Assembly: GCA_017539165.1 (NCBI GenBank) | Contig: JAFYHN010000035.1 | Location: forward strand, 1-64,000 | DNA length: 64,000 nt | Direction: 5' to 3' | DNA from: Eubacterium sp. | Lineage (GTDB): Bacteria > Bacillota > Clostridia > Lachnospirales > Lachnospiraceae | Part shown: piece by piece, positions 3,142-58,158 of the stretch | Position numbering within the stretch: the stretch's first letter is position 1 | Layout of the letters: every line of letters starts with the position of its first letter | Translations under genes and position numbers: made by a program | Notes under the pieces: model-generated | Told to the model about the DNA's origin: nothing | Seen by the model: the letters and a program-made list of their open reading frames with translations, nothing else | The model's database searches: none

Positions 3142-4263
3142 TTAGTGCACGTTGAAAATAGCCATAAATGTTCCGGCAGCAACGGCGGTTCCGATAACTC
3201 CGGCAACGTTAGGTCCCATCGCATTCATGAGAAGGAAGTTTGTAGGATCATACTCTGCTGCAACCTTCTGTGAAACTCTGGCAGCCATAGGTACAGCTGA
3301 AACTCCGGCTGATCCGATAAGCGGATTAACCTTACCCTTTGTGACAAAGCACATGAGTTTTCCAAACAGAACTCCCATCGTGGTACCAAGACTGAATGCA
3401 ATAAGTCCAAGAATAACAATCTTGATAGTTGTCATCTGAAGGAATGCTTCTGCACTTGTTGTAGCTCCTACTGAAGTACCAAGAAGGATAACAACGATGT
3501 ACATCATAGCATTTGAAGCAGTCTCTGTAAGCTGCTTAACAACACCTGACTCTCTAAAGAGGTTACCAAGCATAAGCATACCTACAAGAGGCGCTGTTGT
3601 AGGAAGTATCATAACTACAACCAGTGTAACAACGATAGGAAAAACTATCTTCTCAAGCTTAGTAACTTTACGAAGCTGAGGCATCTTGATAAGTCTTTCC
3701 TTCTTAGTTGTAAAAAGCTTCATAAATGGAGGCTGTATAACAGGTACAAGTGACATATATGAATACGCCGCAACTGCTATAGGTCCGAGAAGTGTATCGC
3801 CCATTCCAAGCTTTCCGGCAAGGAAGATTGATGTAGGACCATCAGCACCACCGATGATTGAAATAGCTGCAGCTTCCTTTCCTGTGAATCCAAGAGCGAT
3901 TGCAAGGAAATAAGCTCCGTAAATACCAAACTGTGCCGCCGCACCCAATATGAAACTCGGCGGGTAGGCTATAAGTGGACCAAAGTCCGTCATGGCGCCT
4001 ACACCCATGAATATAAGTGAAGGAAGGATACTCCATTCATCAAGTTTATAGAAGTAATGCAGAAGTCCACCTTCCTGTATAATACTTGGAAACATGTTTA
4101 CCAGAAACATACCGAATGATATCGGCACGAGCAGGAGTGGCTCAAATCCCTTGGCTATAGCAAGATACATGAAGAGAAATGCAACAAGTATCATGATATA
4201 ATTCTTCCAGTCAAGGGTAGCAAAACCTGTCTGTCCGGCAAGATTTAGAATAATATCTTTCAT
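3142..4263 (-). CDS. oadB: Na+-translocating decarboxylase beta subunit
   Basis: This 373-residue, very hydrophobic protein with about ten membrane segments is the membrane core of oxaloacetate/methylmalonyl-CoA decarboxylases. It decarboxylates carboxybiotin and exports Na+. The family signature GGADGPT (138-144, with the key aspartate D141) is present, as is the C-terminal region NPLIGSAGVSAVPMAARV (313-330) and NAMGPNVAG (347-355) implicated in Na+ and proton handling. The length matches the family. A TACCTCC-complement ribosome site precedes the ATG. It lies between the biotin carrier gene, from which a 27-bp-stem hairpin separates it, and oadA. One OadB probably serves both carboxyltransferases of the operon. 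Confidence 0.93.
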   Translation of the reverse strand: MKDIILNLAGQTGFATLDWKNYIMILVAFLFMYLAIAKGFEPLLLVPISFGMFLVNMFPSIIQEGGLLHYFYKLDEWSILPSLIFMGVGAMTDFGPLIAYPPSFILGAAAQFGIYGAYFLAIALGFTGKEAAAISIIGGADGPTSIFLAGKLGMGDTLLGPIAVAAYSYMSLVPVIQPPFMKLFTTKKERLIKMPQLRKVTKLEKIVFPIVVTLVVVMILPTTAPLVGMLMLGNLFRESGVVKQLTETASNAMMYIVVILLGTSVGATTSAEAFLQMTTIKIVILGLIAFSLGTTMGVLFGKLMCFVTKGKVNPLIGSAGVSAVPMAARVSQKVAAEYDPTNFLLMNAMGPNVAGVIGTAVAAGTFMAIFNVH

Positions 4264-4296
4264 TTTTACCTCCTCAGGTTCTTAGTAAGAACACAC

Positions 4297-4378
4297 TAGT
4301 ATAGTGTTTCTTAATTAACTGGATTATAAACACAGAATGTTTTTCTGAGAGTCCAGTTAATTAGAAATCTCTATACTA
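4297..4378 (-). promoter_or_regulatory. Long intergenic hairpin in the operon mRNA before oadB
   Basis: Inverted arms of roughly 27 bp (TTAGTATAG…TCTAATTAACTGGA against TCCAGTTAATTAAGA…CTATACTA) enclose about 28 nt, including a small CAGAA/TTCTG hairpin. The stop codon of the biotin-carrier gene lies at its base. No T run follows, so it is more likely an RNA processing or stability element setting subunit ratios than a terminator. Confidence 0.6.
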
Positions 4379-4756
4379 ATTTAATGTAACAAGTGTATCT
4401 CCTGATTCAACTGAGGCTCCAACTGTAGCGTTTACAGATGCAACTGTACCATCCTCAGGTGCCACGATCTCATTTTCCATCTTCATTGCTTCAAGAACAA
4501 GAAGTACATCACCCTTCTTAACTGACTTACCAACTTCAGTCTTTACTCCAAGGATCTTACCAGGCATAGGTGCAGATACTACAATGCTTCCCTGTGATCC
4601 AGATGCTGCAGGTGCTGCTGCGGCTGGTGCTGCTGCAGGTGCTGCCGGAGCTGCTACAGGCGCAGATGCTACTGCTGCAGGTGCTGCTCCTCCACCAATT
4701 TCTTCAACTGCTACGTCATATACGCTTCCATTAACTGTTATTCTATAATTCTTCAT
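4376..4756 (-). CDS. Biotin carboxyl carrier protein
   Basis: This 126-residue protein ends in a biotinyl domain with the canonical EAMKMEN site (K92 is the lysine that biotin ligase modifies). An Ala/Pro-rich flexible hinge (about residues 24-51) separates it from a short N-terminal segment beginning MKNYRITVNG, as in decarboxylase gamma/delta carrier subunits. The carrier shuttles CO2 between a carboxyltransferase and OadB. It is the only biotin carrier in a cluster with two carboxyltransferases (5831-7255 and 1464-2870), so it is probably shared. The hinge is encoded by a GC-rich GCW-repeat stretch. Confidence 0.95.
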   Translation of the reverse strand: MKNYRITVNGSVYDVAVEEIGGGAAPAAVASAPVAAPAAPAAAPAAAAPAASGSQGSIVVSAPMPGKILGVKTEVGKSVKKGDVLLVLEAMKMENEIVAPEDGTVASVNATVGASVESGDTLVTLN

Positions 4757-4799
4757 TTCTATTCTCCTTATACCAAATGTATTCTTATAAAAGAATCAC

Positions 4800-5816
4800 C
4801 TAACGTACTCTTCTTATAGATCTTACAACAAGCTTATCATTACTTGCAGTGTAAGCAGGTCCTCTGACACCGCTTCCGGATGCCGCATATATAGCAGCAG
4901 TGATAACTGCAACAAGTTCAGAATCATTTACCAGATTCTCACCTGTGCTTGCCGCAGGCTTCTCAGCAGAAACTTCAGCCTTTTCACTGTCTTCTGCAGC
5001 CTTAGTTCCAATAATCTGTTCCTCTGTCTTCTTCTTTGCAGCTTCTTCAGCAGCTTTCTTTTCAGCTCTCTGCTTTCTGATATCAGCATCAAAGAGCATT
5101 GGAAGATATTTCAGAAGACTGATGATAAATGATATGAATATAAGAACAGCGAAAACTACGCCCATTCCTATGATTGTATTCTTTCCTGCCTGTGAGATAA
5201 GTTCTTTCTTTGAATAAACAGCACTTACTTCACACTCTTCTGGATTATAACGTAACTCATTATACTGAAGAGCAAGAAAACTCTCTATAAATGCATCTAC
5301 AGATGACCCATCCAATCTAGCGTCATTCAAACATGTCTGAGAAACAATTGTATCTACATCTACGCCAAACTGTGCTGCCTGATTTTTGATATTCTTTTCA
5401 ACAGCATCTGCATCAAGTTCGTATTTTCTATTCTGTGTATAAGAAACAGTAATTCTTACGTCTCTCTCTTTATATTCGCATAATACAGAACAGTTAACCT
5501 TTCCATTGGCACCGTTCGTAATCTCTGCAGTACTATCATCTTTGAATGCCACAAACTCACCTACATGGTCTGTAGTCTGAGCCGCAATAAAACCGCTGAC
5601 AGCTGATTTCTCAAGCTCAGTTCCGTCATTTATGAAGTACTCCTGTTCGGTCTCATCTGTATCATAAAACCTTGATATGATATCTTTTGTAGATTTGATC
5701 ATAGAATCTCTGTTAACTTCGAAAAACAGATCTTCCTTCTTCTCACAACCGGCAAGAGCAAAAATGAATGAAAGTAACATGCAAAGAAGCAAACTCTTCT
5801 TTAAGCTTTTTTTCAT
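4800..5816 (-). CDS. Lipoprotein-type OadG (decarboxylase gamma subunit)
   Basis: This 338-residue protein has a lipoprotein signal with lipobox LAGC (C24). An extracytoplasmic domain of about 185 residues follows, then one membrane helix (213-235), a Lys/Glu/Ala-rich linker and a C-terminal segment ending SGSGVRGPAYTASNDKLVV-like, as in OadG/MmdD anchor subunits. Classical OadG proteins are about 80-100 residues with only the helix and linker; the large external lipoprotein domain is an addition. Its role would be to assemble the membrane complex, and the extra domain might sense or contact the cell surface. The gene is 14 bp from mmdA. Confidence 0.8.
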   Translation of the reverse strand: MKKSLKKSLLLCMLLSFIFALAGCEKKEDLFFEVNRDSMIKSTKDIISRFYDTDETEQEYFINDGTELEKSAVSGFIAAQTTDHVGEFVAFKDDSTAEITNGANGKVNCSVLCEYKERDVRITVSYTQNRKYELDADAVEKNIKNQAAQFGVDVDTIVSQTCLNDARLDGSSVDAFIESFLALQYNELRYNPEECEVSAVYSKKELISQAGKNTIIGMGVVFAVLIFISFIISLLKYLPMLFDADIRKQRAEKKAAEEAAKKKTEEQIIGTKAAEDSEKAEVSAEKPAASTGENLVNDSELVAVITAAIYAASGSGVRGPAYTASNDKLVVRSIRRVR

Positions 5817-5830
5817 TTGTTAACTCCTCC

Positions 5831-7255
5831 TTAGAAAGCCATATGTTTTCTATATGGTCTATCCTCTCTTTTAGTTGCAAGCATATCAAATACTGCAATA
5901 AGTCTCTTTCTAGTAGCATCAGGCTCGATTATGTCATCAACATAACCTCTCTTAGCTGCTGCAAGTGCACTTGACTGTGCCTCTGTGATCTTAGCGGCAG
6001 CATCCTTTATAGCCTGCTCTTTATCTGAAGCAGCCGCAATGTCATCTGCATACATGATCTCAGCAGCAGTCTTAGGATCAGTAAGACCGATCTTAGCTGT
6101 TGGCCATGCATATACAACATCTGCTCCGATTGATTTTGAGTTCATAACAATATATGCTGATCCGAACGCATCACCGATGATGACATTTACCTTCGGAACA
6201 GTTGCTTCTGTAAGTGCAACTGTAAGCTTAGCTGAAGCCTTAGCAACGAACTTCTCACTTTCAAATGTTGCCTCAAAACCTTTTGCAGCTGTAAGTGTAA
6301 GTACAGGAATGTTAAATGAATCTGCAAAGCTTACGAACTCTGCAGCTTTCTCAGCTCCATCCGGTGTGATAAGACCGTTAGACTCACTAACCTGATTAGC
6401 AACAACTGCAATGGTTGCTCCATCAAGTTTGATGAATCCTGTAACGATATCTTTACCGAATGCAGGCTTTGTCTCGATGAAAAGATTATCATCAGATATG
6501 CTCTGGGCGATGCTTCTTGCATCATCCTTGGATGCATCTATTCCAGGAATAGTTCTGTTAAGATCATCCTCGCATACAGATACTGCATCTTCCATGTTAT
6601 TTGATGGAAGTACAGATACAAGATTTCTGATACCGTATAATGCATCAGCATCTGACTCGTAAACTCCATCAACAAGTGATGTATTCTCGCTTACGTAATC
6701 AGCTGAAGAAGTATCACACTTCTCCTCATAGTTTCCCTTTATAGCATTTGGACTGTTAACGAAGAGCTTAGCTCCCTTAACCATGAATGTAAAATCAGAA
6801 AGTGATGCAAGAATTCCTGCTCCACCACCACAGTTACCAAAGATAGCTGTAACCTGAGGTATAACTCCTGATGCTATTGATGACTTCTTGAAAAGTGCAC
6901 CAAAGCTGTGAAGCGCATCTGTTGCTTCCTGAAGTCTGAGTCCTGCGCAATCAATAAGTCCTATGACAGGTGCTCCAACCTTCATAGCCAGATTGTATAT
7001 AGCTGCGATCTTCTTAGCATGCATCTCACCGATTGCACCGCCAAGAACAGAAGCGTCCTGACTATATACATAAACAAGTCTCCCATCGATCAAACCATAT
7101 CCAGTGATAACACCGTCTTTTGGAGTATCAAGAAGACCTTCGTTGAAATCAGTTGTTCTCGCTGTTACCTGAGATCCGATCTCAACAAAACTTGAGTCAT
7201 CAAGAAGAGTAGCAATTCTCTCACTTGCTGACAGGGTAAGCTTGTCGCTCATCAT
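5831..7255 (-). CDS. mmdA: MmdA-type acyl-CoA carboxyltransferase
   Basis: This 474-residue protein belongs to the acyl-CoA carboxyltransferase (crotonase-fold) family that includes methylmalonyl-CoA decarboxylase alpha and propionyl-CoA carboxylase beta. Visible features are the N-lobe QDASVLGGAIGEMHAKK, the glycine-rich CGGGAG oxyanion segment, and a C-lobe with a FGSAYIVMNSKSIGAD segment. The N-lobe is somewhat shorter than in MmdA of about 510 residues, so acyl-CoA specificity is not certain; methylmalonyl-, malonyl- and glutaconyl-CoA remain possible. It is the first gene of the operon, with an AGGAGG site, a strong promoter at 7403-7431 and a leader with two hairpins. Confidence 0.85.
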   Translation of the reverse strand: MMSDKLTLSASERIATLLDDSSFVEIGSQVTARTTDFNEGLLDTPKDGVITGYGLIDGRLVYVYSQDASVLGGAIGEMHAKKIAAIYNLAMKVGAPVIGLIDCAGLRLQEATDALHSFGALFKKSSIASGVIPQVTAIFGNCGGGAGILASLSDFTFMVKGAKLFVNSPNAIKGNYEEKCDTSSADYVSENTSLVDGVYESDADALYGIRNLVSVLPSNNMEDAVSVCEDDLNRTIPGIDASKDDARSIAQSISDDNLFIETKPAFGKDIVTGFIKLDGATIAVVANQVSESNGLITPDGAEKAAEFVSFADSFNIPVLTLTAAKGFEATFESEKFVAKASAKLTVALTEATVPKVNVIIGDAFGSAYIVMNSKSIGADVVYAWPTAKIGLTDPKTAAEIMYADDIAAASDKEQAIKDAAAKITEAQSSALAAAKRGYVDDIIEPDATRKRLIAVFDMLATKREDRPYRKHMAF

Positions 7256-7290
7256 AATGTCCTCCTAAGATAAATAATTTATATCCTGCA

Positions 7291-7370
7291 GTCGCACGTT
7301 TAATGCGACACATAAAAGATAAGATATAACACGATGCCATAAATTACCGTGTTATATCTTATCTTTTATG
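7291..7370 (-). promoter_or_regulatory. mmdA operon leader with a perfect 23-bp inverted repeat
   Basis: Between promoter and start codon lies an exact 23-bp inverted repeat (7311-7333 and 7348-7370) around a 14-nt loop, then a smaller GTCGCA/TGCGAC hairpin (7291-7309). It begins about 26 nt after the predicted transcript start. There is no T run, so simple termination is unlikely; an mRNA stability, protein-binding or operator role is possible. Confidence 0.65.
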
Positions 7371-7402
7371 ATACACGTGTAACCGCAACTTTTGCCTTTT
7401 AT

Positions 7403-7431
7403 ACTATACTTCTTTTTATGTTCCATTTCAA
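7403..7431 (-). promoter_or_regulatory. Promoter of the Na+ decarboxylase operon
   Basis: TTGAAA (7426-7431) and TATAGT (7403-7408) on the minus strand are spaced by 17 bp. This close match to the housekeeping consensus gives a leader of about 140 nt for mmdA. Confidence 0.75.
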
Positions 7432-7442
7432 GTAAATCATAC

Positions 7443-7471
7443 AAAAAATGCGCCCCAAAGCGCATTTTTTT
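7443..7471 (-). terminator. Terminator after pgsA
   Basis: ATGCGC and GCGCAT form a short hairpin with A and T runs on both sides, so it can act in both directions. It lies just past the pgsA stop codon and before the mmdA promoter. Confidence 0.85.
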
Positions 7472-50244: not shown

Positions 50245-50268
50245 ATATTATTCTCATATATTTAAACA

Positions 50269-50608
50269 TGGAGTAGAGGGGAATTGAACCCCTGTCCGAA
50301 AGCTCTTCCATCAAGGTGTCTTCCATCATAGTAAGTGTTTTAACATTCCCTACGTCACACGTCCACTTACAGACTTATGATTTCAGTAGCTTGTTATTCT
50401 TCCCGAGCCTACAAGCTTTGGCAAGGAAGTACTCCGCCTCTTTGATGCCAGTACCCCACGCAGCGGATGACGCAGGACTGACAGCTGCACTTAGGCAGCG
50501 AGTGCTAATTTATTATCAGCGTTTATATTTAATAGATGTTTTTACGAGGTCACCCGCCTCGGATGGCTGCCCTAATTTCTAAACCCCCGTCGAAACCTTT
50601 ACTACCCC
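50269..50608 (-). ncRNA. ssrA: Transfer-messenger RNA (tmRNA)
   Basis: The 5' end GGGGTAGTAAAGGTTTCGAC and the 3' end with the TTCAATTCCCCTCTACTCC T-arm/acceptor strand pair as an alanine-tRNA-like domain (GGGGUAG with CUACUCC). The CCA is not encoded. The coding part reads GCT GAT AAT AAA TTA GCA CTC GCT GCC TAA, giving the tag ADNKLALAA. tmRNA rescues ribosomes stalled on non-stop mRNA with SmpB (51397-51864) and RNase R (52028-54157). No clear promoter of its own is visible. Confidence 0.96.
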
Positions 50609-50850: not shown

Positions 50851-51273
50851 TTAGTCATCTTCTTCCATCTGCAGATCATCAAGATTGATCTCTTCATCAC
50901 CGTCTTCGATATCACCATAATCGATATCAACTCCGTTGTCATCAACCTCCATAGCATCTGCATCTGTTGCTGTAGCTGCATTAAGCTGATCAAGTATATC
51001 ATTAACTCCATTTGGATTCAAAGCGTCTGAGTAATTCTTACCCCAGTATTCTTCAAACCATGTATCAAGATTAGCAGTAGCTATAGTTCTATGCCTTGCT
51101 TCCTCTGCTTTTCTTTCGTTATATATATATTTACCAAGTGGAATTCCGATAATTGCTCCAACACCAAGTGCTGCGACAAGAACTCCAACTACTTTAGCAA
51201 TCTTCTGACGTTTGATAGTCTTTGCTCTGTTCTTTTTTTCCTCTTTGTATTTATCAACTTTTGCCTGACTCAT
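50851..51273 (-). CDS. Membrane protein with an acidic cytoplasmic or external tail
   Basis: This 140-residue protein has a Lys/Arg-rich start (about 1-25), one membrane helix (about 27-50), a short basic stretch, an aromatic segment (TWFEEYWGKNY) and a very acidic C-terminal tail (about 105-140). I do not recognise the family. It lies between smpB and the tmRNA leader modules and has its own promoter at 51337-51365. No terminator separates it from the tmRNA region, so tmRNA could be processed from its transcript. Confidence 0.7.
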   Translation of the reverse strand: MSQAKVDKYKEEKKNRAKTIKRQKIAKVVGVLVAALGVGAIIGIPLGKYIYNERKAEEARHRTIATANLDTWFEEYWGKNYSDALNPNGVNDILDQLNAATATDADAMEVDDNGVDIDYGDIEDGDEEINLDDLQMEEDD

Positions 51274-51396: not shown

Positions 51397-51864
51397 TCAT
51401 CTCAGTTTTACTTTAAAATCTCTCTCGGCTTCTCTTTTTTGGTCTCTCTTCGCAAGATCATCTCTTTTATCGTAGAGTTTTTTACCTCGAGCCAGACCTA
51501 TTTCAACTTTAACAAGACTTCCGCTGAAATACACTTTAAGCGGTACAACGGTATAACCCTTCTCTTTCGTCTTACCAATCAGCTTATTGATCTCCGACTT
51601 ATGAAGAAGCAGTTTTCTCTTTCTAAGAGGATCCTTATTAAATATATTTCCCTTCTCATAAGGATTGATATGCATATGAATTATGTAAACCTCACCTTTA
51701 TCTATGGAAATGTAACTCTCTTTGATACTGCACTGCCCCATTCTGAGTGACTTAACCTCAGTTCCTGCCAGTTCAATACCAGCTTCATACGTCTCATCTA
51801 TAAAATAATCATGATATGCTTTTTTGTTATTTGCTATCAGTTTAGTTCCACTATCTTTTGCCAT
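51397..51864 (-). CDS. smpB: SsrA-binding protein SmpB
   Basis: This 155-residue protein binds tmRNA and delivers it to stalled ribosomes. The beta-barrel segments [20 protein letters not shown] and the [19 protein letters not shown] block, and the basic C-terminal tail [17 protein letters not shown], are clear. The gene lies 1.2 kb from tmRNA and 163 bp after rnr. Confidence 0.97.
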
Positions 51865-52027: not shown

Positions 52028-54157
52028 TTATACAAATTCAAAATCAATCACTCTGTCTATCTTATCTGCATTTATAACCTTGATCCTGCACTTATCGCCA
52101 AGTTTCAGAACCTTTCCGCTGTCTCTTCCAACCATCTCATACTTATCTTCATAGTAGGTGTAATAATCATCTGTGAGTTCAGAAACCCTAACAGCTCCTT
52201 CAACAGTTGATTCCAATTCGACAAATATATTCTGATTAGTAAAGCCAGAAATAATTCCGTCAAACTCCTCACCGATATGCATAGACATATATTCTATCTG
52301 CTTAAGTCTGACAACATCACGCTCAGCATCAACCGCTCTTCTTTCCTTAGCAGAGTTATCCTCAGCCACTTTAGGAAGAAGTTTTGAATAATGCCTGATT
52401 CTATCTTCATTCAGCTGACCATGCAGGTTTTCTTTTATGATTCTATGAATCTGTAAATCAGGATATCTTCTGATAGGAGAAGTGAAATGGCAATAATACT
52501 TACATGCCAGTCCAAAATGTCCTATACACTCAGTAGCATATCTCGCCTGCTGCATCGAACGAAGCGTCATCCTGGTAACAAGAGCCTCATACGGTTCACC
52601 TGTTATCTGATTCAAAAGCTTCTGATATTCCTTCGGATGAATCCTGTCAGTACTCACTTTGAAGTATATTCCAAAATTCCTTATAGCATCTCTAAGCATA
52701 TCAACCTTTTCCTGAATAGGAGTTTCATGCACTCTGTATTCAAATGGAATCTCTGCCCAGTAGTACTCTTCAGCTACCGTTTCGTTCGCCATAAGCATAA
52801 AGTCTTCTATGATCTTTGTAGCACAGTTTCTATCATAAGGATGAATATCTATAGGCTTTCCATCTTCATCAACTATGATCTTCGTCTCAGCCACATCAAA
52901 ATCTATAGAACCTCTCTTCTCTCTTGCTGCTCTGATTATGTCAGAAAGCTCTTTCATTCTTTCGAAAAGAGGAATCAGAGACTTATATCTCTCAACCGGT
53001 GCATCATCCTTTTTATCAAGGATAGCTGCCACATCAGTATAATTCATTCGTTCATTTACATTTATCAGACCTTCGACTATCTCATGTCCAATAACCTTAC
53101 CCTTCTCATCGATATCCATAAGACATGAAAGCGTAAGTCTGTCCACACCCATATTAAGGGAGCAGATACCGTTCGAAAGTTTGTGAGGAAGCATAGGAAT
53201 AACACTATCTACGAGATAGTTACTCGTTCCCCTCTTCAGCGCTTCTTTATCAAGCGGACTTCCTTCACGGACATAATTCGACACATCAGCTATATGAACA
53301 CCCAGATGGTAAATGCCATCTTCATATTCAAGTGTAATAGCGTCATCCAGATCCTTCGCATCTTCGCCATCTATAGTAACAGTATCAAGATGTCTCAGAT
53401 CTCTTCTGCCGACCTTATCTTCCTCAGCTACTTCTTCCGGAATCGATTCAAGCTGTACATTAACATCATCAGGGAATTCAACCGGAATTCCGTAAGTCTT
53501 CACAACCTGCAAAATATCGGTTCCCGGATCATCTATATGTCCGATAACCTCAGACACATAACCCTCTGGTGATTTTTTATCATCACCATAGTTCTTCAGT
53601 TCTACTATGACCAGACTTCCGGTAACAGCGCCCATAGAAGATCCCTTAGGGATAAATATATCATCAGCTATTTTTTTATTATTCGGAATAACAAAACCAT
53701 ATCCATCACACTGCTGAAATACACCTATAAGCTGTTCTGTATTTCTCGAAAGAATTCTTGTTATAACAGCTTCTTTTCTAGGACCTCTTGCACTGCTATT
53801 TACATTTATAAGAACCTTGTCTCCATGAAATGCATTCAGCGTATCTTTTGCAGCAACAAAGAAATCCTCTTCATAACCTTCAACAGTTACAAAACCGAAT
53901 CCTCTCTTAGTTCCACTGTATATTCCAACCAGAACACCCTTTGGCGGAAGCATATATCTGTTATTCTTTGTTTTTACGATTCTCACTTCATCACACAAGG
54001 TATTCAACATTTCAAGAAACTTCTGTTTCTCCTCCTCGTCAGAAACATCAAGAAGATAACAGAGTTCCTTAAACTTAAGCGGTCTATAATCATTTTTCCC
54101 CATCAATTCATTGAAGAACATCATTAGTTCTTCTATATCATAATATTTAGTATCCAT
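52028..54157 (-). CDS. rnr: Ribonuclease R
   Basis: This 709-residue 3'-5' exoribonuclease digests structured RNA and helps tmRNA remove non-stop mRNAs. Cold-shock domains at the N-terminus (VLVGIYSGTKRGFGFVTVEG) precede the RNB catalytic domain with TIDGEDAKDLDDAI (metal-binding aspartates), and an S1 domain closes the chain. It lacks the long basic C-tail of E. coli RNase R. It starts 105 bp after the secG stop and precedes smpB, the secG-rnr-smpB order common in Firmicutes. Confidence 0.95.
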   Translation of the reverse strand: MDTKYYDIEELMMFFNELMGKNDYRPLKFKELCYLLDVSDEEEKQKFLEMLNTLCDEVRIVKTKNNRYMLPPKGVLVGIYSGTKRGFGFVTVEGYEEDFFVAAKDTLNAFHGDKVLINVNSSARGPRKEAVITRILSRNTEQLIGVFQQCDGYGFVIPNNKKIADDIFIPKGSSMGAVTGSLVIVELKNYGDDKKSPEGYVSEVIGHIDDPGTDILQVVKTYGIPVEFPDDVNVQLESIPEEVAEEDKVGRRDLRHLDTVTIDGEDAKDLDDAITLEYEDGIYHLGVHIADVSNYVREGSPLDKEALKRGTSNYLVDSVIPMLPHKLSNGICSLNMGVDRLTLSCLMDIDEKGKVIGHEIVEGLINVNERMNYTDVAAILDKKDDAPVERYKSLIPLFERMKELSDIIRAAREKRGSIDFDVAETKIIVDEDGKPIDIHPYDRNCATKIIEDFMLMANETVAEEYYWAEIPFEYRVHETPIQEKVDMLRDAIRNFGIYFKVSTDRIHPKEYQKLLNQITGEPYEALVTRMTLRSMQQARYATECIGHFGLACKYYCHFTSPIRRYPDLQIHRIIKENLHGQLNEDRIRHYSKLLPKVAEDNSAKERRAVDAERDVVRLKQIEYMSMHIGEEFDGIISGFTNQNIFVELESTVEGAVRVSELTDDYYTYYEDKYEMVGRDSGKVLKLGDKCRIKVINADKIDRVIDFEFV

Positions 54158-54618: not shown

Positions 54619-55215
54619 TTATTCTTTAAAATGCGTCTTTATAAAGAAATCAATATGTTTTTCAACAAGTTCCATCGCTTCTTCTTTTCTCTCAGGCTGC
54701 CTGTCACAAAGTTGTATAAGAACCGAGGTAGGAGACATATATTCCAGTGCAAGAATCTTTGGATCAGCTTCAGTTACAGCCCCGATCTTAACCAGCTTCT
54801 CAAATATCTTGGTAAATAGATTTACAAGACTGTCATACTGATACTCAGATGTATTACTTGCAAACTCAGCATCACGAAACTGTTCAATAGTTCCCATCTT
54901 CCTCAGCTTGATAACCATCGGATCATTAATGGTACGTTCAATCTGTTTCATGCTGAACATCTTTAATTCTTCGCTATTATGTATCCATACAGGAGTTTCA
55001 GGATCTATTCCGAATCTCTTAATATAGGGATTATCATAATTATTCTTAAGAACTTCGAGAATATCTTCCTTCTTCTTAAAGTACTTATATATGTTCGGCC
55101 CCTGCATGCCTATGGACTTAGCGATCTCATCAACGCTTGTGGCATCATATCCTTTCTGAGAAAAAAGCTCCAATGCGCCATAAACGATTCTTTGTCTAAC
55201 AGATAATTCTTTCAT
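54619..55215 (-). CDS. TetR family transcriptional regulator
   Basis: This 198-residue regulator has an N-terminal TetR helix-turn-helix, ARQRIVYGALELFSQKGYDATSVDEIAKSIGM followed by IYKYFKKKEDIL, and a ligand-binding C-terminal part of no recognised class. The start is the ATG at 55215, with AAAGGG 8 nt before it. It lies 66 bp past the GTPase-nuclease fusion gene, in the same direction, so it may be co-transcribed with it. Its target and ligand are unknown; a link to the fusion is inferred from position only. Confidence 0.88.
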   Translation of the reverse strand: MKELSVRQRIVYGALELFSQKGYDATSVDEIAKSIGMQGPNIYKYFKKKEDILEVLKNNYDNPYIKRFGIDPETPVWIHNSEELKMFSMKQIERTINDPMVIKLRKMGTIEQFRDAEFASNTSEYQYDSLVNLFTKIFEKLVKIGAVTEADPKILALEYMSPTSVLIQLCDRQPERKEEAMELVEKHIDFFIKTHFKE

Positions 55216-55281
55216 GAGCATCACCCTTTCAATGCAGAGATTATATCAATTTTTTCTCATTTTATCGTAATATACCGGCCA

Positions 55282-58158
55282 CTATAAGTCAACCGAAATA
55301 CGATTATAAATTTCCTTTTTTTCAGCTCCTTCAACTATCGAATTACGACAGCCCTTAACATCCAGCAGAAGGTCGTTTGCCGACATGAGTTTTGAGTTCT
55401 CGCCTCGGATGATGAGCTGAATTAATCCATCCGATGTTGCTACCGTGATATCCATGTTTTTAGTGTTCTGGATTGTAAATCTTGCGATATACTGATCAGC
55501 CGTTTCAGCCTCTTTAGTATAGACCACATGAACACCCATATAGTCGAGTTTTTCTGTAAAATGTCCTCTTACGTTATAGGCATCGAAGACAACGATAACT
55601 TCCGTATCTCTCATAACCCTGTATTCGGACATTATATCCAGTAGTCTGTATCTGGCGCCTTCCAGTTCAATAGAATCCTGATTAGATCTTCTTCCTGAAG
55701 CCCCTTCAGGATTAGAAAGAAGACTTTTAAGTTCGTCCCATGCATGGATTATATTGTAACCATCGACGAGAAGATACTTTGGCTTAATTTTTGTAACCTT
55801 ATTTCCCGTTATCGACTTACCAGATTCTGTTGTACTGTTTTCTGACTGACATAATTCAGTAACGCGAGAACTATAACTTGCTCTGTCACGAGCAATACTT
55901 GTATTCTTCCTCAGATAAACTCTCTTACCATTCCTCTTCTCTTTACCGGCATTGGCATGAGTTGTGCTCATAAGGATGGAATCGATCTCATCTGTACCTA
56001 TAGCTTCAAGTCCTGATTCAACCAAGGTCTGTCTATTTCTTGCCTGGGCAGCATTTCTTACTCTTTCAGCTTCCCTTTCCAGCGCTTCATCATCACTCTC
56101 AGTGATAACGTCGAAATACTCATCTTCCTTTGAATCCAGGTGCATCAACTCTTCACATTCGAACCAAGGAACATAGTATCCTGCCCCATGAGATATAAAT
56201 ATACTTCCAGACGGATTCTTTGCATCTGTATCCGGATCATATGTAACGCCTAAACTCTCAACATATTCATGAGAACATGCTCTGTACGCACCAGGCTGAA
56301 GGCTTATCCTGCCCCTTCCCGATGTATACTTTGTAAGTTCAGCCTGATAATTCTTCAGATGTCGTGCAGGAGCCGAGCCCGTTATGACAGCAACTTCATC
56401 AGTCTGACTTTCAAGAGAACAATTACCCTCCATCTGATTAATGTCTGTCATAGCTCTCCCCATAGAAAGCGCAGGAAGGGTTATCCTGAAATCAAAGTAA
56501 GGTTCAAGAAGGACATTTTCAGTCTTCATCAGAGCCTGTCTGACAGCCCTTCTGGTCGCCTCCTTAAAGTCCTGACTATCACTGTGTTTTATATGACTCT
56601 TACCGGCAACAAGTGTAATCCTGATATCAGTCAGCTCAGAACCAGTGATCACTCCCGGAGGGAGATCATTTTCAAGAGTAGACAGTATCGTCTTCTGCCA
56701 GTTTATTCCGAGTTCACTCACGCTCAGATTACTTGCAATCTCTATTCCACGTCCTTCATCAAGCGGTTCAATCAGAAGCTGAACCTCGCTGTAATGCCTT
56801 AATGGTTCAAAATGCCCATAACCCATAACAGGAGAAGCAATAGTCTCTTTATAGATCAGGCTTCCTTCATCAAATGTCACTTTAACGCCATATCTTTCAA
56901 AAATCATAGCAGCAAGTATCTCAAGCTGAAACTCGCCCATAACAGAAACGTGGATTTCCTGACTATCCGGGTCTGATTCAATATTAAGCAAAGGATCTTC
57001 TGATATCATCTCTCGAAGTTTAGGCATAAATGTTATAACCGGTGTATCTATTGGAAGAATCATGTTATACCTAAGAACAGGACGTGACATAGTTTTATCA
57101 TCATCTGATTCATCTCCAAGACCCATTCCTATAAATGCATCCTCCAGACCAAGCAGAGTTACAACATCGCCAGAAGCAGCAGTTTTTATACTCTCATACT
57201 TCCCGCCACTATAGAGACGTATCTGACTTATCTTAGCTCCTTTAAGTCTTTCATCATCAGGAATATCTCTTACAGATATCTCTCCACCCGCGATTTTTGC
57301 AAAGCAAAGCTTGTGACCATCTTCAAAGCTGATCTTAAATATCTTTGCTGACGGATTCTGTCTATACTTAAATTCGGTCGTATAACCAGTAAGCAATCTA
57401 ACCAAACTGTCAGTTCCTGTATTCTTCAAAGCACTTCCAAACAGGACCGGATGGAACAATCCTTTATATAAGAGTTCTGCTATCCTTTCATCGGTTATAT
57501 CTCCATCTTCAAGAAATTCTTCGATAGAGTCTTCAGATAAAGAAGCTATCTCCTCTTTTATCTCCATCAAATCATCTGTAGATGAAACGCCGGTAGAAAC
57601 GCCTCTAGAATCATCACCAAAGCCTTCAACATGACCTTCAGCAGAACCACACACAAGAAGCTCCGACGATATCATTCCGGAACCAAATGTATCTTTTAGT
57701 TCTGAAAGAACATCTTCATGACTCCTCTCGCACATATCCATCTTGTTTACATACACGATATAAGGAACACGGTAAACGCCAAGAAGTGCAGCAAGTCTCT
57801 TAGTACTTTCTGTAACACCATCAGGTCCACTCACAACCAGAACAGCCATATCCATAACAGACATAGCCCTCTCCGTCTCTCCTATAAAATCCACATGTCC
57901 GGGAGTATCAATTATTGTAATTCTGATATCGTCGTCAGACATATTAAGAGGACCGCCCTTAGGACAGTCTATTATAGCCTGTTTAGAAACTATGGTAACT
58001 CCACGCTTCTTTTCAAGAAGTTCTGTATCCAGAAATGCATTTCCATTATCCACACGACCAGCTCTTCTGATCATACCCGTTTCCAGAAGCAGACTTTCTG
58101 TAAGTGTTGTTTTTCCGGCATCTACATGCGCCAGGATTCCAAGAGTAATCTTTTTCAT
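55282..58158 (-). CDS. TetM/EF-G-like translational GTPase fused to a YacP/Rae1-type NYN nuclease
   Basis: This 958-residue protein joins two translation-linked parts. Residues 1-680 form an EF-G/TetM-type factor: G1 AHVDAGKTT (10-18), RGVTI (52-56), DTPGHVD (84-90), NKMD (139-141 region) and GSA (241-243), then domains II-V. Charged, Ala-rich linker 680-790 follows. Residues 795-958 match a whole YacP/Rae1 NYN domain: LLVDGYNIIHAW, VVFDAYN, TKEAETADQYI and TSDG, with acidic residues D799, D859, D888 and D910. Bacillus Rae1 cuts mRNA in the ribosomal A site. The TetM loop YYSPVST is replaced by KSHIKHSDSQDF (520-531), so classic tetracycline protection is doubtful. TetR gene lies next to it; ssrA, smpB and rnr are nearby. 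Confidence 0.85.
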   Translation of the reverse strand: MKKITLGILAHVDAGKTTLTESLLLETGMIRRAGRVDNGNAFLDTELLEKKRGVTIVSKQAIIDCPKGGPLNMSDDDIRITIIDTPGHVDFIGETERAMSVMDMAVLVVSGPDGVTESTKRLAALLGVYRVPYIVYVNKMDMCERSHEDVLSELKDTFGSGMISSELLVCGSAEGHVEGFGDDSRGVSTGVSSTDDLMEIKEEIASLSEDSIEEFLEDGDITDERIAELLYKGLFHPVLFGSALKNTGTDSLVRLLTGYTTEFKYRQNPSAKIFKISFEDGHKLCFAKIAGGEISVRDIPDDERLKGAKISQIRLYSGGKYESIKTAASGDVVTLLGLEDAFIGMGLGDESDDDKTMSRPVLRYNMILPIDTPVITFMPKLREMISEDPLLNIESDPDSQEIHVSVMGEFQLEILAAMIFERYGVKVTFDEGSLIYKETIASPVMGYGHFEPLRHYSEVQLLIEPLDEGRGIEIASNLSVSELGINWQKTILSTLENDLPPGVITGSELTDIRITLVAGKSHIKHSDSQDFKEATRRAVRQALMKTENVLLEPYFDFRITLPALSMGRAMTDINQMEGNCSLESQTDEVAVITGSAPARHLKNYQAELTKYTSGRGRISLQPGAYRACSHEYVESLGVTYDPDTDAKNPSGSIFISHGAGYYVPWFECEELMHLDSKEDEYFDVITESDDEALEREAERVRNAAQARNRQTLVESGLEAIGTDEIDSILMSTTHANAGKEKRNGKRVYLRKNTSIARDRASYSSRVTELCQSENSTTESGKSITGNKVTKIKPKYLLVDGYNIIHAWDELKSLLSNPEGASGRRSNQDSIELEGARYRLLDIMSEYRVMRDTEVIVVFDAYNVRGHFTEKLDYMGVHVVYTKEAETADQYIARFTIQNTKNMDITVATSDGLIQLIIRGENSKLMSANDLLLDVKGCRNSIVEGAEKKEIYNRISVDL

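Follow-up and report, generated by a model that had tools for sequence, protein, structure and literature searches.

A Rae1-type NYN nuclease fused to an EF-G/Tet-type GTPase in a Eubacterium sp.: a candidate ribosome-associated mRNA endonuclease of the Lachnospiraceae

The closest described proteins are those of Atkinson 2015, where Tet proteins of ten clostridiales species were stated to have acquired a YacP-like NYN domain, and where it was proposed that the RNase activity may serve in antibiotic resistance (PMC4342817). They have the architecture considered here, a Tet-subfamily GTPase joined to a YacP-like NYN domain in clostridial hosts; this architecture has therefore been in print since 2015 and is not new here. 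The passages of that paper that deal with these proteins make no mention of a linker motif, tail loss, a tree of the fusion or the loss of a separate yacP. Both halves also resemble separate proteins. Bacillus subtilis Rae1/YacP (structures 5mq8 and 5mq9), which acts on mRNA lying in the A site (PMC12320835), has the NYN fold and four aligned acidic residues in common with our protein, whereas our protein is fused to a GTPase, lacks the tail motif of the standalone enzyme and carries a 14-residue insert. TetM, TetO and TetW share the EF-G-like domain order and fold, whereas the fusion scores below the curated cut-offs and has its own tip motif and its own C-terminal extension. In both EF-G and Tet proteins, domain IV extends as far as the decoding site (PMC4342817). 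The 862 aa protein WP_320690501.1 of Monoglobus pectinilyticus is the same kind of fusion, because it has the same tip motif and the nuclease motif DGYN; its NCBI name, 'translation factor GTPase family protein', gives neither nuclease nor function. No function test of such a fusion was recognised among the papers listed from an open-licence library, a scope outside which the main Rae1 papers lie.

The window, i.e., the whole stretch of DNA that was analysed (64,000 nucleotides), contains the fusion gene as a single frame of 958 aa with an ATG start (ORF translation). The order of its Pfam domains is GTP_EFTU, EFG_III, EFG_IV, EFG_C and NYN_YacP. Its features are as follows.

55282-58158, minus strand: fusion gene, EF-G/Tet-type GTPase plus Rae1-type NYN nuclease (translation, Pfam)
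57379-58149, minus strand: G domain GTP_EFTU, residues 4-260 (Pfam, 162 bits)
Residues 380-429, minus strand: EFG_III (Pfam)
56521-56856, minus strand: domain IV, EFG_IV, residues 435-546 (Pfam)
56566-56604, minus strand: domain IV tip loop, residues 519-531, H-x-K-H-x4-D-F (fixed in 42/42 fused rows)
56263-56514, minus strand: domain V, EFG_C, residues 549-632 (Pfam)
56131-56241, minus strand: C-terminal extension of the GTPase, residues 640-676, S-x-F-x-x-H-G-x-G ... W ... MH (alignments)
55780-56130, minus strand: linker, residues 677-793, for the most part lacking a confidently predicted structure (pLDDT)
55948-55998, minus strand: fusion-specific linker motif GTDEIDSILMSTTHANA, residues 721-737 (68/70 fused linkers)
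55315-55773, minus strand: Rae1/YacP NYN domain, residues 796-948, with acids D799, D859, D888 and D910 (Pfam, alignment, fold)

The first-pass annotation had read this gene as an EF-G/TetM-like GTPase fused to a Rae1-type NYN nuclease. The fusion is real, with the Pfam domains of both parts in one frame. The NYN_YacP match reached 128.6 bits against a cut-off of 24.6 and covered positions 1-141 of the 166 in the profile, so that the end of the profile was unmatched. Because 27 aligned Lachnospiraceae fusions keep invariant columns in the GTPase and nuclease halves alike, the fusion is not a chance event. We put the probability at roughly 45% that the gene is this bacterium's Rae1, i.e., an mRNA endonuclease that associates with ribosomes and is mounted on a Tet/EF-G-type GTPase, with the two halves using the A site in sequence.

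The GTPase half was described in the first-pass annotation as complete in its G motifs, and all four are present: AHVDAGKT (residues 10-17), RGVT (52-55), DTPGH (84-88) and NKMD (138-141), as identified by eye. By pattern search, DTPGH and NKxD were found in 71/71 unique fused frames, G1 in 70/71 and G2 in 69/71. The residues of these motifs were invariant, or almost so, across the 27 fusions. The full-chain AF2 model, built from 19 rows, had a pLDDT of 77 and was weak at residues 35-56 (switch region) and 173-192. In this model the GTPase half has an EF-G fold by Foldseek. TetO and TetM are the closest solved structures by sequence, over residues 1-625. The extension that follows domain V was kept in fused and solo GTPases alike (alignments), with its glycine-rich part detected by pattern in 70/71 fused and 29/31 solo frames; the TET and EFG alignment rows end before the extension, having been cut to the profile match.

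The tip of domain IV had been quoted as evidence that the TetM loop is not conserved and that a plain resistance label is doubtful. Residues 520-531 read KSHIKHSDSQDF, where the first-pass annotation had placed them, and a TetM-type tip is indeed absent. The loop is nevertheless not an eroded TetM loop, as H522, K524, H525, D530 and F531 were fixed in 42/42 fused rows of the tree set. The same residues were fixed in the 31 solo GTPase rows, except K524 (24/31). At this site, the EF-G rows (n=7) read H-D/E-V-D-S-S-E-M/L-A-F. Three Tet rows (L320-L322), which we take to be tet(W/O/M)-type from likeness and not from annotation, read YSPVSTPADF where the fusion reads HIKHSDSQDF. Four further Tet-like rows have H522, H525, D530 and F531 but not K524. 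The tip has a conserved motif of its own, which is new here. Scores against curated NCBIfam Tet models were far too low, at 393.5 for NF012153 (cut-off 775) and 271.3 for NF033148 (cut-off 1100), and the Tet and EF-G models among the best 25 of 37 matching NCBIfam models were all below their cut-offs. The tetracycline-resistance label is doubtful because of these scores and the different tip loop, and as a plain label it was ruled out on the same grounds.

A wider form of that idea, the Atkinson 2015 proposal, makes the protein a factor that protects ribosomes from tetracycline or from some other drug or toxin of the A site, the RNase being an added arm. The proximity of TetO and TetM among solved structures speaks for it, as does the match of residues ~1-675 to a Ligilactobacillus salivarius plasmid protein annotated as Tet and to viral contigs. 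The NF012153 score, far under its cut-off, and a tip loop that differs from the TetM/O/W-type rows speak against it, and together with the distribution and neighbourhood data below we consider it quite unlikely.

In the nuclease half, D799, D859, D888 and D910 lie at the places given in the first-pass annotation, and their aligned counterparts in B. subtilis Rae1 are D7, D53, D81 and D104. We take these four acids to be catalytic. Their motifs were retained in nearly all of the 71 unique fused frames: DG[YF]N in 69, [FYV]DA in 71, TAD in 70 and [TSA]SD in 69. Two of the three exceptional frames keep the acids (DAYN in one, DAYN and TGD in the other), and the third ends early. The AF2 model of residues 784-958 had a pLDDT of 81, and its best structural matches were the Rae1 structures 5mq9 and 5mq8, with an E-value of 1e-10 and a TM-score of 0.65-0.66 by query, which upholds the Rae1 fold that had been assumed. 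A 14-residue insert is located at residues 815-828 (55675-55716) and has no counterpart in the other 11 rows of alignment A4. As to whether a separate yacP is missing, the genome (112 contigs, 99.5% complete) yielded one NYN_YacP domain, that of the fusion, with no second one detected.

These data bear on the possibility that the protein is an rRNA or tRNA maturation or decay factor, in which structured RNA would be the substrate of the NYN domain and the GTPase would sense the assembly of subunits. Anantharaman and Aravind 2006 proposed rRNA/tRNA maturation for YacP-like NYN domains (cited in PMC4342817), but B. subtilis Rae1 attacks A-site mRNA (PMC12320835) and the fused NYN domain has a Rae1-like fold. 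Maturation is the least likely of the explanations weighed here.

Standalone and fused nucleases differ at their C-terminal ends. With a pattern picked by eye (hydrophobic-R-[RKLQ]), and leaving aside frames without a [TS]SD match (3/46 solo, 2/71 fused), the Rae1 tail motif was found in 38/43 solo but only 7/69 fused frames. The solo count is a low estimate, because at least one clear tail (FEKWRR in L271) escapes the pattern. Similarly, 52 or fewer residues follow the TSD motif in 24/69 fused and 0/43 solo frames. In our protein, none of the 48 residues after D910 match hydrophobic-R-[RKLQ]. The loss of the Rae1 C-terminal tail motif from most fused nucleases is new here. The end of the tail matters in B. 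subtilis, since the Rae1 change R166P is among the listed loss-of-function suppressors (PMC6613710). We infer that the tail docks on the ribosome.

The linker between the GTPase and the nuclease is ~117 residues long, and in the full-chain AF2 model its pLDDT is below 50 over residues 708-722, 724-726 and 728-789. Between residues 674 and 796, just two columns, E724 and I728, were nearly invariant across the 27 fusions. The linker carries the motif E-[ILV]-[DE]-x-I-[FL]-x-R-T-[YF], which was present in 68/70 fused linkers at a score above 99.9% of shuffled linkers in a leave-one-out test; one of the 71 fused frames yielded no linker, and fragment L092 was omitted. When whole solo proteins were scanned at the same threshold, the motif was found in 0/46 solo NYN frames and 1/30 solo GTPase frames, where the sole match (L312) sits at residue 367, inside the GTPase body. 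L039, L046 and L075, being fragments, are not part of the solo set. The fusion-specific motif of the linker is also new here. Tail loss and the linker motif together point to adaptation to the joined state. Because the rows are related, the counts for tail and linker reflect conservation or loss within lineages, not independent events.

Another explanation is a tethered pair without GTP coupling, in which a GTPase with its own job holds Rae1 near ribosomes and the two activities are independent. In its favour, each half is found alone in other genomes, and the linker is long, with most of it modelled at low confidence. Against this, the linker motif is kept in 68/70 fusions, and most fused forms have lost the tail motif of Rae1. 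We regard an uncoupled pair as possible, though rather doubtful.

A quick GTPase tree of 87 sequences, with SH-aLRT support only and with 42 of the 71 unique fused frames, placed the GTPases of the subfamily on one branch (support 100), apart from EF-G and other Tet-like rows. The 42 fused GTPases fell into one clade (99), together with four solo rows and one mis-tagged fragment (L092, a contig-end fragment wrongly tagged as solo). The four solo rows (L093, L096, L162 and L163), from Collinsella, Bifidobacterium avesanii and two viral contigs, group together (99); the remaining solo GTPases formed a separate clade of 25 (97) with one alone. The genome of B. avesanii gave no NYN_YacP match. Because these solo GTPases nest inside the fused clade, the Collinsella/Bifidobacterium/viral group seems to have lost the nuclease. 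This arrangement, a single supported clade of fused GTPases with a nested nuclease-less group, appears in our tree and is new here. In the NYN tree, whose bootstrap had not fully settled, 41 fused and 12 standalone domains from the same family and order formed a clade (99/99) apart from 34 standalone domains. The basal forks had support of 85/26 and 83/48, at which the order of fusion and fission is not fixed. The simplest reading of both trees would be one fusion from a local Rae1, followed by loss in one group. As regards a mobile origin, two records labelled 'Bacteriophage sp.' from human faeces also match the fusion: MT835514.1 (15276-17816; Mexico, marked unverified) over 99% of its length and MT835563.1 (5421-7958) over 85%. 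They may be mis-binned bacterial DNA.

The first-pass annotation had suggested searching for the architecture across genomes. In a sample of 150 Lachnospiraceae, one genome per genus, NYN_YacP was detected in 135, and in 119 of the 150 it was in a frame of at least 780 aa. The remainder comprised 6 short, broken or contig-edge fusion frames, 10 small standalone NYN frames and 15 genomes with none. The fused form is the usual one in this family. Five of the 10 standalone-NYN genomes carry a solo subfamily GTPase and five show none. All 130 Lachnospiraceae genomes with a subfamily GTPase also have NYN, but just 5 of them are informative because the other 125 are fusions or broken fusions. Among 291 Clostridia genomes, the subfamily GTPase (at least 710 bits to profile A2; next full-length Tet-like match 544) was present in 119, contig-edge fragments such as G329 and G288 not being counted. 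It was in a frame of at least 780 aa in 100, from 25 families, all with an NYN call. Fusion-bearing named loci (L082-L091 and L094) are from Lachnospiraceae, Oscillospiraceae, Clostridiaceae and other Clostridia. The 241 genomes of other Bacillota classes contained 11 fusions (GTPase frames of 877-909 aa, with an NYN_YacP frame of equal length in every case) and two solo GTPases with a separate small NYN gene. In the class of Neobacillus cucumis, the GTPase was found in 20/200 genomes (N. cucumis included) and a long frame in none. The fusion is frequent and old. For a protection factor, the sporadic solo relatives in those 20/200 genomes are favourable, but the core-like presence of the fusion in Lachnospiraceae is not.

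Co-occurrence of the unfused halves was examined as Rosetta-stone support and ruled out. In unfused Clostridia genomes, with the short GTPase frames G200, G280 and G372 left out as broken fusions, NYN was present in 10/16 genomes with the GTPase versus 77/172 without it (Fisher p = 0.20); hence no GTPase-NYN link is shown outside the fusion. NYN was present in 4/5 named solo-GTPase genomes and 2/2 of the phylum sample. Three genomes (G285, G350 and G390) have two NYN_YacP matches each, one of them in the fusion frame; the second may be a standalone Rae1. In G135 (contig C43, 27866-29818), the G-domain half (query 3-436) and NYN share a 690-aa frame in which domains IV and V are for the most part unmatched; it is a shortened fusion or an assembly error.

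The genes downstream of the fusion (TetR, rnr, smpB and ssrA) had also been pointed out in the first-pass annotation. All of those named are in the window, with RNase R, SmpB and tmRNA within 5.1 kb, and MscL is a further neighbour.

54619-55224, minus strand: TetR-type regulator (PF00440), 57 bp downstream of the fusion (Pfam)
52028-54157: gene of RNase R-type RNB protein
51397-51864: SmpB gene
50266-50608: tmRNA gene

No terminator-like site separates the fusion from the TetR gene; upstream of the fusion there is a terminator-like stem. As support for function, however, this neighbourhood did not hold. In 31 loci of relatives (20 Lachnospiraceae and 11 named, 7 to 23 kb each, several cut by contig ends), SmpB, RNase R, MscL and beta-galactosidase were found in 0/31 flanks by tblastn, and tmRNA in 0/31 by ARAGORN. 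A neighbourhood link to trans-translation was ruled out by the absence of SmpB, RNase R, MscL and tmRNA from these loci. The sole TetR match in the 31 loci was 48 residues long and ~7 kb from the fusion (L091, tblastn), so a TetR partner was likewise rejected. The TetR gene downstream of the fusion would suit a protection factor, but it adjoins the fusion in none of the 31 other loci. Two further observations concern this region. Between tmRNA and smpB, positions 50851-51273 encode a 140-aa protein with a hydrophobic stretch, an acidic tail and no Pfam match. In the nearest relative (L286), a single case, the last 4 bp of a YlmH_RBD gene (4035-4778) are shared with the start of the fusion (4775-7468); in B. 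subtilis, YlmH takes part in ribosome-associated quality control (PMC11317155).

Returning to the fusion as this bacterium's Rae1, the following sequence of events can be envisaged. The GTP-bound GTPase would bind ribosomes with a free A site, or with one obstructed by an object other than cognate tRNA, and the tip of domain IV would clear or probe the site. GTP hydrolysis would then free domain IV, after which the tethered nuclease could move into the same A site and cut the mRNA; the cut ribosome would become a substrate for tmRNA-SmpB. The coupling would have to be sequential, because domain IV and the nuclease would hardly fit into one A site. The GTPase may take over whatever the C-terminal tail provides to standalone Rae1. 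A more specific version, which we hold only tentatively and would not expect to be correct in full, is a GTP-gated mRNA-cutting rescue factor, in which the EF-G-like arm clears a blocked A site, the nuclease cuts the exposed codon and the linker motif acts as a dock or latch. Such a factor would be the standard Rae1 in much of Clostridia and would feed tmRNA rescue.

The architecture itself is real, widespread and already reported. Rae1-type A-site cleavage is so far known from the standalone B. subtilis enzyme. The linker motif and the lost tail offer handles on the fusion, through single mutations and domain swaps. If the proposed reading is true, genes that are labelled Tet-like today would need renaming, and mRNA cleavage on stalled ribosomes would gain an energy-dependent branch in many gut-type bacteria.
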